A DNA stretch of 35,763 bases from an uncultured bacterium (GTDB taxonomy: Bacteria > Bacteroidota > Bacteroidia > Chitinophagales > Chitinophagaceae), in assembly GCA_903959965.1 (NCBI GenBank), contig CAJBZC010000549.1, positions 1-35,763 of the forward strand, read 5' to 3'. The notes under the pieces were generated by a model, which made no database searches, was not told the origin of the DNA, and was given only the letters and a program-made list of their open reading frames with translations. The position numbers and the translations under genes were made by a program. Positions 8,961 through 14,886 of this stretch are shown one piece after another (within the stretch, counting starts at the first letter, position 1; the number at the start of each line of letters is the position of its first letter).

Positions 8961-9013
8961 AAAGCCGGCACTGGATCAGCGGGCATCAATCCCGGTAATC
9001 CAGCGCCGGCTTT
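8961..9013. terminator. Inverted repeat at convergent gene ends, candidate terminator
   Basis: AAAGCCGGCACTGGAT (8961-8976) / ATCCAGCGCCGGCTTT (8998-9013): 16-nt arms, one mismatch. Right arm lies in the 3' end of the minus-strand M20 gene. Confidence 0.7.
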
Positions 9014-10443
9014 CTGTCTCCCAGCAGGGCCTTGTATTGGTATGCACCTTTCTTTTGAAGGAACTCATCCTTTGCACGTTTGATCAGGGCCGCATCATTG
9101 AATAGCTCGATGCCCATATTGGTGAGGGCTTTTGCAGCGACCATCATACCCTTGGTGCCGATCTCCGTTCCACCGCAGGCCACGGCTTGCCAGCTGTGCA
9201 TGGGTGTGCCAGGCACCCAGGTGGCCGCACCGATGCCGGCTGTTGGTACATTATAACTGACATCACCCACATCGGTCGAGCCGGGCGCCATGTCATCGGG
9301 CGCATCAAACGCTTTGATCTCGGCTGCTTCGGCAACAGGAGGAACTTTCCCGGGGAAGGTCTTCCTGATCTCTTCTGCAAAGGCCAGATCCTGTGTTGTG
9401 TATTGCACGCCTCCCGCGAGTACGAGGTTCCTATGGAAGGCTTCGGATAGACTGCGATTTACCAAGAGGTCGTGCGTCCCGCCGATGATCTCGAATTTCA
9501 TCTGGGTCTCTGTGCCCAGGGCAGCTCCCGTCGCGGCTTGCGCGACCCGGTCGAAGATATTCACCACAACATCCTTGTCCGGGTGGCGGACATAGTAGTA
9601 AACTTCCGCGAAGTCGGGCACGACATTCGGCGCCTTGCCGCCCTGCGTGATCACATAGTGGATACGCGCATTTGAAGGGATGTGCTCACGCATCATATTC
9701 ACCATGTGGTTCATGGCTTCGACGCCATCCAGCGCGGAACGCCCAAGTTCGGGGGAGGCGGCGGCATGGGCAGCTTTGCCATAGAATCGGAATTTCGCAG
9801 ACTTGTTCGCCAGCGCGCCATCCAGTGCCACTCTGTTCTCACTGCCCGGATGCCAGTGTAGTACCGCATCTACATCCCGAAACAATCCTTCCCGAACCAT
9901 GTACACTTTTCCGGAACCACCTTCTTCAGCGGGACAACCATAAACGCGGATGGTACCCTTCCAGCCCTGCTGCTCGAGCTGACGCTTCAGCTCGATGCCG
10001 GCGGCAACGGAGGCGGTGCCGAACAGATGGTGGCCACAACCGTGTCCGGAAGTACGGCCCGAAGCCGGCATTTTTTCCGTAGCCGCCTGCTGCGACAGCC
10101 CCGGCAGGGCATCATATTCTGCGAGGATGCCGATGACCGGTGATCCACTTCCGTAACTGGCCACAAAAGCTGTAGGAATGCCGGCTACGCCCGCTTCTAC
10201 CCTGAAACCCGCGTTTTTAAGGCTTTCCTGCAGCAGGGCGGAACTCTTCACTTCCTTGTAGCCAAGCTCTGCATGCTCCCATATCCGCAGAGAAATATCC
10301 CGGTAGCGCTCATATCCTTTCTGCAGGTTGTCCATCGCCGCGCGTTTCACCAGGTCGGTGGCCGGGACGACCGGCTTACGTTGAGCCAAAGCCGCGTTCA
10401 CCAGGGCAGTCAGGCAGAAACAAAGGATATGTATTTTCTTCAT
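8986..10443 (-). CDS. M20-family amidohydrolase/peptidase (AbgB-like), secreted
   Basis: Signal peptide MKKIHILCFCLTALVNAALAQ; GILAEYDALPGLSQ, GHGCGHHLFG, GCPAEEGGSGKV, HWHPGSEN motifs. Confidence 0.9.
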   Translation of the reverse strand: MKKIHILCFCLTALVNAALAQRKPVVPATDLVKRAAMDNLQKGYERYRDISLRIWEHAELGYKEVKSSALLQESLKNAGFRVEAGVAGIPTAFVASYGSGSPVIGILAEYDALPGLSQQAATEKMPASGRTSGHGCGHHLFGTASVAAGIELKRQLEQQGWKGTIRVYGCPAEEGGSGKVYMVREGLFRDVDAVLHWHPGSENRVALDGALANKSAKFRFYGKAAHAAASPELGRSALDGVEAMNHMVNMMREHIPSNARIHYVITQGGKAPNVVPDFAEVYYYVRHPDKDVVVNIFDRVAQAATGAALGTETQMKFEIIGGTHDLLVNRSLSEAFHRNLVLAGGVQYTTQDLAFAEEIRKTFPGKVPPVAEAAEIKAFDAPDDMAPGSTDVGDVSYNVPTAGIGAATWVPGTPMHSWQAVACGGTEIGTKGMMVAAKALTNMGIELFNDAALIKRAKDEFLQKKGAYQYKALLGDRKPALDYRD

Positions 10444-10515
10444 GGTCAAAATCATATTTGAGGAACAATATTAGCAGACTATCGTCATATTTCATGCTTG
10501 CCTGGTTGCCATAGT

Positions 10516-10678
10516 AACCCTCCAAGCGTTGGGTAACCCTCCAAGAGTGGGGGTACCCTCCAAGCGTTGAGGACGCTCCGAGAGCCGGCAACTCTCCAAG
10601 AGTGGGGGTACTCTCCAAGCGTTGAGGACGCTCCGAGAGCCGGCAACTCTCCAAGAGTGGGGGTACCCTCCAAGGGTT
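10516..10678 (-). repeat. Micro-hairpin tandem array 1 (9 units, 18-19 bp period)
   Basis: 13-nt units with variants of ACTCT-CCA-AGAGT beginning at 10517, 10536, 10555, 10573, 10591, 10610, 10628, 10646 and 10665, separated by 5-6 nt linkers (TGAGG, CGGCA, GGGGGT, TGGGTA). Called minus relative to array 2. Confidence 0.95.
10554..10663. repeat. 55-bp higher-order direct duplication within array 1
   Basis: 10554-10608 and 10609-10663 are identical except for one base (10557 C / 10612 T). Confidence 0.95.
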
Positions 10679-10804
10679 TATTGGTCGCATTTTTTGACAT
10701 ACCTCAACAATAGCCGCAATCCCCGATACGGCGAATATCGGTAAGGGTGTTATCTTCATGTGCGGGGATCTTCCCTCAGAAATTTTCCAATCCACTATTC
10801 TCAG

Positions 10805-13138
10805 ATGCGTATCATCCGCCTGTCATCCCTCATCCTCGCCGCGTCCGCCTCCATGATGGCCGGCGTCTTCGCACAATCTGTTCCAACGACCGGATCTTTC
10901 CGCTTTGAGGCATTTGCAAGGCATCAAGCCCTGGCGAAAGCGTCACCGTACAAGGACATCAGCTGGCGCAACATCGGCCCGGATCACATCAGCGGCCGCG
11001 TTACAGAAGTGGCGGGCATTCCCGGCAACCGGAATATCATGTTTGCCTCCTTTGCCACCGGCGGGTTCTGGAAGACGACGGATGCCGGTGAAAACTGGAC
11101 CCCGCTTTTCGATGCACAGGCAACCCAGTCGATCGGCGCATTCAGGCTGGCTCCATCAAACCCAGACATCATCTATGTAGGCACTGGCGAAGCGAATATC
11201 TTCCGGGCATCCCTGCCAGGCACAGGTATGTATCGTTCTGCTGACGGTGGTAAAAACTGGCAGCATATCGGTCTGGAAAATTCAGGAACGATAGCACGGA
11301 TCATCGTGCATCCCCGAAACCCTGAAAAGGTTTGGGTGGCCGCCGGTGGCAACGAGTGGAGTCGCAACCCGGAGAGGGGCGTGTACTACACGGAAGATGG
11401 CGGTAAATCCTGGCAACGCGTGCTGGGTGAGGATGACAAGACCGGCGCCATCGACCTGACGATGGATCCCTCCAACCCGGATGTCATCATCGCATCCATG
11501 TGGAATCGCATCCGACGCAGGTGGAGCGACCCCGTCCCGGAAGATGGTGATCATCTGTACAAGACCATCGATGGCGGACGTACATGGAAGATCATCACTA
11601 ACGGTCTGCCACACACGAAGTTCACTGGCCGCATCGGTATCGCCTTCGCCCCATCGAAACCAGATCGGGTATATGCTTATGTCGACAACCACACATCGAA
11701 GCGCGAACCCCGCCCCGGTGAGTTGGATCCCTACGGACGACCCATTCAGGTCATCCCCTTTGGCGTACAAGTATATCGCAGCGACGACAAGGGGGAAAAC
11801 TGGCAGAAGGTAAGTACAGAGGATGATAAGTTGGAAAGATTTGCCGGTACCTACGGATGGGTTTTTGGTCAGATCCGCGTCGATCCTGTGGATCCGGAAG
11901 TCGTGTACATTATGGGCGTACCCCTCGCGAAGTCGGTCGATGGAGGGAAGACATTCACCATCATGCGGTCAACCGACAAGGAGAGCGACCGAACCCATGG
12001 CGACCATCATGCACTATGGATCGATCCGACGGATACAAAGTACATCATCAACGGCAACGACGGAGGTGTCGTGGTGTCATATAATGGAGGCGCACGGTGG
12101 AAGAATTTCTTCCGAAAAATTCCCACGACGCAGTTCTATAACGTGACTTGGGATATGCGCACGCCTCACACGGTCTTTGGCTCCGTTCAGGACGAGGGAT
12201 CCTTCAAGGGATTGGTCACTAGCGATTACGATCACCCTAAAAAGGATCAGCAAGGCTGGACTTCTGCACCGGGGGGCGAGGGCACCATCATCGCCATAGA
12301 CCCCACATCACCGGACATCGTTTATGCCTCCAGTTTTTACGGAAGACTGATGCGCAGCGATCTCTCCAAACCGGACTCCATCCGTTCAACAAATATCTAT
12401 CCCAAGCGTGTAGAAGGGGAGCAGGTGCATCGTGGGGAATGGCTGGCCTATACAATGCTGTCGCCTCATGACCCGAACACCATCTATCATGGTTTTCAGT
12501 ATCTTTTCCGCTCGACGGATCAGGGCAAGACCTGGAAGCGTATCAGCGGGGACCTGACTTACAATGATACATTAAAGATGGGTCGTACGCCTTATGCAAT
12601 CAATCATCAGGCAATCACCGCGATCGATGAGTCACCGCTTGTTAAGGGACTGCTTTACGTTGGGACTGACGACGGCCGAGTATGGAAGCAGGGTGCTCCG
12701 GACGCAGCCTGGAAGCCCTCGATGACAGGTATTCCCCAAAATGCACATGTGTCAAGGATTGTAGCTTCCAAGTATGACGCATCGATGGTTTATCTCACGT
12801 TGAGCAATCGCCGGGAGGATGAAAGCCGTGCTTATATTTATTTTTCATCAGATCGCGGGGAGACATGGCAAGACATCGGTAATGGATTACCGTCAGCACC
12901 CGTTAACGTGGTGCGCGAGGATCCCGTGGTGAAGGGAATGCTATATGCAGGTACGGACATGGGCGTATATGTCAGCAATGATCAGGGGAGGACATGGAGC
13001 TCTTTGAAGGCTAACTTGCCAGCTTCCGTGTCCGTGCAGGACCTGTACATTCATCCTCGTGATGGCCAGCTGGTGATTGCCACCTATGGCCGGGGTGTCT
13101 GGGTGCTGGATGATATGAGCAAGATTAGAAAACTTTGA
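10805..13138 (+). CDS. Sortilin/VPS10-like BNR-repeat (glycosyl-hydrolase-like beta-propeller) secreted protein
   Basis: Signal peptide MRIIRLSSLILAASASMMAGVFAQ; repeated Asp-box motifs (KTTDAGENWTPLF, RSADGGKNWQHI, YTEDGGKSWQRV, RSTDQGKTWKRI, SSDRGETWQDI); GRGVWVLDD C-terminus. ORF track begins at 10760; 10805 fits the signal peptide. Confidence 0.92.
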   Translation: MRIIRLSSLILAASASMMAGVFAQSVPTTGSFRFEAFARHQALAKASPYKDISWRNIGPDHISGRVTEVAGIPGNRNIMFASFATGGFWKTTDAGENWTPLFDAQATQSIGAFRLAPSNPDIIYVGTGEANIFRASLPGTGMYRSADGGKNWQHIGLENSGTIARIIVHPRNPEKVWVAAGGNEWSRNPERGVYYTEDGGKSWQRVLGEDDKTGAIDLTMDPSNPDVIIASMWNRIRRRWSDPVPEDGDHLYKTIDGGRTWKIITNGLPHTKFTGRIGIAFAPSKPDRVYAYVDNHTSKREPRPGELDPYGRPIQVIPFGVQVYRSDDKGENWQKVSTEDDKLERFAGTYGWVFGQIRVDPVDPEVVYIMGVPLAKSVDGGKTFTIMRSTDKESDRTHGDHHALWIDPTDTKYIINGNDGGVVVSYNGGARWKNFFRKIPTTQFYNVTWDMRTPHTVFGSVQDEGSFKGLVTSDYDHPKKDQQGWTSAPGGEGTIIAIDPTSPDIVYASSFYGRLMRSDLSKPDSIRSTNIYPKRVEGEQVHRGEWLAYTMLSPHDPNTIYHGFQYLFRSTDQGKTWKRISGDLTYNDTLKMGRTPYAINHQAITAIDESPLVKGLLYVGTDDGRVWKQGAPDAAWKPSMTGIPQNAHVSRIVASKYDASMVYLTLSNRREDESRAYIYFSSDRGETWQDIGNGLPSAPVNVVREDPVVKGMLYAGTDMGVYVSNDQGRTWSSLKANLPASVSVQDLYIHPRDGQLVIATYGRGVWVLDDMSKIRKL

Positions 13139-14678: not shown

Positions 14679-14746
14679 TACCTTGTTTGAGAGTCAACTG
14701 GTCATTTACGGGAACAATCTCTCATGTTTGTCCTTACGAAAACCCA

Positions 14747-14886
14747 ACTCTTGGAGAGTCCTCAACTCTTGGAGAGTCCTCAACTCTTGGAGAGTTGCCC
14801 ACTATTGGAGAGTCTCCCACTCTTGGAGAGTCCCTAACTCTTGGAGAGTACCCCCACTCTTGGAGAGTCCCTGACTCTTGGAGGGT
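14747..14886 (+). repeat. Micro-hairpin tandem array 2 (8 units, 18 bp period, one 19)
   Basis: 13-nt ACTCT-TGG-AGAGT units starting at 14747, 14765, 14783, 14801 (ACTAT variant), 14819, 14837, 14856 and 14874 (AGGGT variant); linkers CCTCA, CCTCA, TGCCC, CTCCC, CCCTA, ACCCCC, CCCTG. Confidence 0.97.

Follow-up and report, generated by a model that had tools for sequence, protein, structure and literature searches.

The RAYT (TnpA_REP) proteins of subclass 2.6 (RAYT group 5), which occur in Bacteroidetes, are reported to be flanked by 'atypical' hairpins with further copies in the genome (PMC6006769). REPs, BIMEs, and REPINs are short extragenic palindromes of about 20-60 nt that lie near the 3' ends of genes and flank the RAYT gene of their genome; tandem REP arrays are known among them, and REPIN doublets have set spacings, which in P. 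fluorescens are 71 bp and 110 bp (PMC3116915, PMC3733652). That an HUH enzyme of this kind cuts DNA is known from E. coli TnpA_REP (PMC8266576). CGTC-tagged REPs are likewise families of extragenic palindromes, but they have no dedicated flanking transposase (PMC3733652), whereas the hairpins described below have one. Intergenic TAACTGA direct repeats, some of them in Bacteroidetes, resemble the present repeats in being short, tandem, intergenic, and patchy in distribution; they are, however, heptamers closely upstream of start codons, and the abstract describing them states no link to a transposase (PMC4679880). We describe here an array of nine small hairpins that are very probably dwarf REP elements clustered in tandem, in a Bacteroidota variant of the REP/RAYT system; a RAYT (an HUH/Y1 nuclease) is presumed to use them as substrates. 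We read it in this way because matching hairpins adjoin a RAYT gene in the genome that carries the array and in its relatives. The hairpins are therefore more likely passengers of the RAYT than a promoter switch.

The window, by which we mean the whole stretch of 35,763 nt that was analysed, belongs to a genome (G000) of 3.70 Mb in 583 contigs. Its features are as follows.

8986 to 10455, minus strand: gene of the M20 peptidase family on the left side of array 1, listed for context
10517 to 10677, plus strand: array 1, nine 13-nt hairpin units ACNCT-CC(A/G)-AGNG(T/C) with 5/6-nt linkers and a period of 18/19
10591 to 10603, plus strand: unit 5 of array 1, ACTCTCCAAGAGT, with a perfect 5-bp stem and a CCA loop
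10665 to 10677, plus strand: unit 9 of array 1, ACCCTCCAAGGGT, with a perfect stem; the same 13-mer surrounds the RAYT gene of the congener G047
10805 to 13138, plus strand: sortilin/BNR-repeat gene on the right side of array 1, listed for context
14743 to 14886, minus strand: array 2, eight units of the array 1 family, one of them degenerate, in the orientation opposite to array 1

The units of array 1 start at 10517, 10536, 10555, 10573, 10591, 10610, 10628, 10646, and 10665, with spacings of 19, 19, 18, 18, 19, 18, 18, and 19. Each has a 5-bp stem and a CCA or CCG loop, and the linkers are 5 or 6 nt. This agrees with the original prediction of nine units on an 18/19 rhythm, except that its consensus ACNCT-CC(A/G)-AGNGT does not hold for units 4 and 7, in which the 3' arm is AGAGC. 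Every unit is an inverted repeat, as was also claimed, though the 5-bp stem is perfect in only three of the nine. TRF gives a period of 19 with 8.6 copies, and also a three-unit, 55-bp higher-order repeat (95%). The pattern CTCCRAGNG is found at 17 sites in the window, whereas 100 shuffled versions gave 2.7 on average and never more than 8. As single-stranded DNA, each strand of array 1 folds better than any of its 200 shuffles, with z-scores of -3.9 and -3.8. No RNA family of Rfam 15 matches the array at the gathering score. A 139-aa open frame on the minus strand (10376-10795) spans the array; it would encode a repetitive peptide and is probably spurious. CRISPR loci consist of repeats of about 23-50 bp separated by unique spacers of similar length. 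Array 1 has regularly spaced repeats in common with them, but its 13-nt unit, its recurrent and often identical 5/6-nt linkers, and the presence of such arrays at dozens of loci bear out the earlier view that it is not a CRISPR.

A search of G000 for adjacent unit pairs found 152, with 76 on each strand, while a reversed control pattern gave 0. About 37 arrays were parsed, many of them cut by contig ends, and the most frequent unit across them by unit counts is ACTCTCCAAGAGT. Adjacent pairs are also abundant in two congeners that are sister species, G018 (148) and G003 (89), so that the further arrays that the original prediction had proposed to look for do exist in the genome and its relatives. 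A few pairs occur in G044, G050, G046, and G006, and the pattern is absent from all other congeners examined. A 399-genome sample of the order yields, apart from G000 itself, no more than three isolated hits. Period-17 arrays with the core of these units are found at many loci of two Bacteroidota assemblies, MAG.246 and an Aureispira-labelled MAG, and the array period differs by lineage, being 15, 17, 18, or 19 bp. Matches in RUG216 (Prevotellaceae), and isolated ones in other phyla, were rejected as other repeats or chance. The RUG216 sequence (L186, L220) is a long period-19 repeat, CTCCAAGAGTTACTCCNCC, which has core letters in common with the units, does not share their kind of palindrome, and seems to be another repeat. 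Among viral contigs, the unit search gave no clear phage family, and one 21-kb contig has two units: IMG/VR 3300007520_000094 (L280:2908-2938), with two ACCCTCCAAGGGT units and a 5-nt linker, is filed as viral and may be cellular.

The RAYT gene of G000 is on contig C288 (186-851, minus strand), and a seven-unit array lies about 57 bp beyond its 3' end; the contig begins inside this array and shows one side of the gene only. The G018 homolog (C174) has at least eight units 38 bp beyond its 3' end. Upstream of that in KR_bin-2786 there are five units, the first 18 bp away, and the homolog of the Aureispira-labelled MAG is flanked by units on both sides. Altogether, RAYT homologs with lineage-specific hairpin units alongside are found in seven genomes besides G000, and the gene is flanked by its cognate palindrome, as in REP systems, in G000 (C288), G018, G047, G435, G436, and G014. 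G000 and G018 share their adjacency by descent and count as a single event; further cases are G047, KR_bin-2786, the Aureispira MAG, and G014. By our own estimate of chance, an array would fall within about 160 bp of a given gene for about 1 in 200 genes (about 40 arrays in 3.7 Mb). The RAYT gene is syntenic in six congeners, adjoining a fatty-acid-hydroxylase gene, with a proline-racemase-family gene also at this place where the contig reaches far enough. Among 41 congeners, RAYT is present in 5 of the 8 unit-bearing genomes and in 2 of the 33 unit-free ones (Fisher p = 0.0014, with relatedness ignored), and G014, one of the two unit-free carriers, has its own unit family. A cognate RAYT was not detected in the unit-bearing genomes G003 (60% complete), G050, and G006, and in MAG.246 the search gave no more than a distant Y1 protein, which has no units close to its gene.

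Another Y1_Tnp gene, represented by G000:C184 and its relatives, was at first suspected as the partner because it was present in all seven array genomes then known. It was rejected: no unit cluster lies within 1.5 kb of it, and it is present in array-less congeners too. A Y1_Tnp gene of the HPAQN type, distinct from the RAYT (L168, L165, L166, and relatives), is found in many congeners, mostly as a single copy without nearby units, and is possibly domesticated. Contig C99 of KR_bin-2786 (L335) carries a second RAYT homolog with other palindromes on each side, AACCCCGAGGAT...ATCCTCGGGGT and AACCCCGAGGGT...ACCCTCGGGGT.

The unit beside the RAYT gene differs from lineage to lineage. It is ACTCTCCAAGAGT in G000; ACCCTCCAAGGGT in G018, together with TACCCG, which on the opposite strand reads CGGGTA, the most frequent linker in that genome; ACCTCCAAGGT, on both sides, in G014; GGTTTCCAAAACC in G046; and GTTCTCAAAAC-like in G044, with a spacing of largely 19. 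When the match between this unit and the repeats of the same genome was put to a prediction test, ten G014 contigs picked arbitrarily, 92 kb in all, contained 20 copies of ACCTCCAAGGT, and the samples of the other genomes contained none. The GTTCTCAAAAC-like unit of G044 differs from the ACCCTCCAAGGGT family of that genome; it is enriched at G044 loci selected for the other unit, but not in 30 kb of arbitrary G044 contigs. In G046, GGTTTCCAAAACC was not found in 75 kb of arbitrary contigs, and an array on another contig mixes GGTTTCCAAAACC and ACCCTCCAAGGGT units. By eye, the GGTTTCCAAAACC units of the G046 arrays at L236:1180-1420 and L326:1180-1435 follow GTAG, ATAG, or CTAG, and one of these two arrays switches from GGTTTCCAAAACC to ACCCTCCAAGGGT units. 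GTAG is the tag of classical REPs.

An exact search for the 13-mer ACCCTCCAAGGGT over the genus turned up 30 copies in G047, whose genome is complete and has no tandem arrays. Here, two palindromes 2 bp apart make up a 28-bp module, and all 26 modules are paired, at 13 loci, with spacings of 56/57 bp (4 loci), 117-121 bp (8), and 695 bp (1). The 695-bp pair encloses the Y1/HUH transposase (RAYT) gene, and the other 12 pairs are gene-less. The DNA held by the module pairs (L290-L295) is unrelated and measures 28 or 90-92 bp, lengths that are about six helical turns apart.

The G000 RAYT is an intact protein of 221 aa with HUH and YIHANP motifs, and H52/H54, Y131, and N135 are invariant in an alignment of nine homologs. 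The best PDB match of its predicted structure (pLDDT 85) is 4ER8, a RAYT-REP hairpin complex (E = 5e-9; TM 0.49 by query and 0.64 by target), followed by IS200/IS605-family transposases. The sole NCBIfam match is REP_Tyr_transpos (NF047646), at 57.7 bits, below the cut-off of 80; the G000 protein has no Pfam match at E 0.01, and the G047 RAYT just passes for Y1_Tnp. Judged by motifs against the published table, the protein is like subclass 2.6 in having HUH and Y-x-x-x-NP motifs, an SS motif, and a Bacteroidota host, and in being encoded beside atypical hairpins with copies elsewhere, and the HUH-Y distance is 77 aa compared with a reported median of 82. It differs in that its HUH motif is NHFH rather than NH[LIV]H and its Y motif is YIH[AS]NP rather than YIH[QN]NP, and long tandem arrays like those seen here go unmentioned in the passages on subclass 2.6 (PMC6006769). 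The repeats themselves are, like REPs, short, many-copy, extragenic palindromes: besides the 152 pairs in G000, none of the 72 parsed arrays overlaps a gene called by our own simple codon-score method. The unit is, however, 13 nt rather than about 20-60 nt, and head-to-tail arrays with 5/6-nt linkers are the main form. The module pairs of G047 resemble REPIN doublets in their set spacings (PMC3116915, PMC3733652), but such inverted pairs are found in G047 alone (13/13 loci), whereas the arrays of the window are head-to-tail. The GTAG/CGTC tag of classical REPs is present in none of the 331 linkers of G000, G018, G003, and G006.

An array is found at the matching place in another of the three genomes G000, G018, and G003 for 28 of 30 G018 records (one locus appears twice among them), for 17 of the 18 G003 arrays, and for 27 of the 37 G000 arrays. 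The matched arrays are mostly in like orientation with differing unit numbers; array 2, which separates a sulfatase gene from a DUF5107/TPR gene, has counterparts of 3 units in G018 and 9 units in G003. The comparison, which took in only array loci from G003 and G018, shows that the arrays are old; sites may nevertheless have been gained or lost. The divergence of units versus flanks is noisy, with arrays in the flanks of two loci, and in the clean ortholog pairs, which alone were used, the core bases seem by eye better conserved than the flanks. Of 196 distinct contexts, 136 show the variable stem position paired inside its own unit, where 95 are expected, and 146 show it paired with the adjacent unit (AGNGT-linker-ACNCT), where 98 are expected. 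In statistical terms, pairing between units is thus no weaker than pairing within them. From the sequences, we favour the hairpin within the unit, because the stems change across lineages while the CCA loop stays constant. The between-unit signal can also arise from cassettes moved blockwise between identical cores.

Array 1 does lie between divergent genes, as first described, the M20 gene starting at 10455, or at an internal ATG at 10443, and the sortilin-like gene at 10805. The array had been suggested to be a nucleic-acid structural element acting on transcription, mRNA stability, or a DNA-binding protein; the structural part of that proposal stands, and a regulatory role for the array here is not supported. 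We regard it as very unlikely that the arrays act in cis on neighbouring genes, through a promoter, mRNA stability, or binding of a regulator, even with array 1 in a divergent intergenic region, place and orientation kept across three species, and a core that seems, by eye in clean ortholog pairs, better kept than its flanks. By the same gene calls, the 43 arrays with both neighbours called comprise 26 tandem, 9 divergent, and 8 convergent cases, a distribution like that of background gene gaps (100 tandem, 27 divergent, and 21 convergent), so that the expected bias to divergent promoters is not seen, and array strand relative to transcription is mixed, without bias. In short tandem gaps, the array is closer to the 3' end of the upstream gene in 13 of 14 cases; a sign test gives p = 0.0009, which overstates the significance because some of the 14 arrays are orthologs. 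Published REPs likewise sit near the 3' ends of genes (PMC3733652). Furthermore, the M20-sortilin gap is 349 bp here and 47-136 bp in nine congeners measured, which keep the divergent gene pair although the gap carries no array, and the lack of an Rfam family also speaks against a cis-acting role. Array 1 probably has no dedicated promoter function, and single arrays may carry a secondary role.

An enzyme-free origin is unlikely as well. The arrays would then be a self-amplifying palindromic minisatellite, made from chance quasi-palindromes by polymerase slippage and snap-back synthesis, and the adjacency to RAYT would be incidental. The variation of copy number at conserved places, the 55-bp higher-order repeat, and the occasional inverted neighbouring units are all in keeping with this, and the growth of the arrays very likely owes something to slippage. 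However, such a process leaves unexplained the dispersal to dozens of loci, the presence of RAYT beside matching units in several lineages, and the success of the G014 prediction. Scarcely credible, in our view, is a binding array for a nucleoid or chromosome-organising protein that recognises double-stranded DNA. The strict unit spacing would suit such a protein, as would the G047 module spacings, which are about 63 bp, or near six helical turns, apart, but periods of 15, 17, 18, and 19 bp place neighbouring units on different helical faces, and a folded single strand better fits a stem whose sequence varies by lineage with its pairing kept.

If the arrays are tandem dwarf REPs mobilised by RAYT, we infer a mechanism like that of E. 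coli TnpA_REP, with single-stranded DNA as the form in which the enzyme would bind the hairpin and cut it. Through transposition, such cutting would have placed copies between many genes of an ancestor; neither a transposition event nor a clean insertion junction was seen in the loci compared. Later, the arrays would have kept their place, growing, shrinking, and staying uniform by duplication, loss, and exchange of units at the invariant CTCCAAG core. We also put forward, tentatively and with some doubt, that RAYT itself might build and maintain the fixed-period arrays, with enzyme and stem co-diversifying around the CCA loop, which would be a distinct, array-forming mode of REP replication.

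The literature searched gave no account of long tandem arrays of Bacteroidota RAYT hairpins. The arrays account for many contig ends in these assemblies. The genus provides a natural series, in which one syntenic RAYT locus has a differing hairpin in each lineage, with matching repeats across the genome, and which spans the range from paired modules (G047) to long arrays (G000). The co-evolution of RAYT with its hairpin and the origin of tandem REP arrays thus become directly testable.
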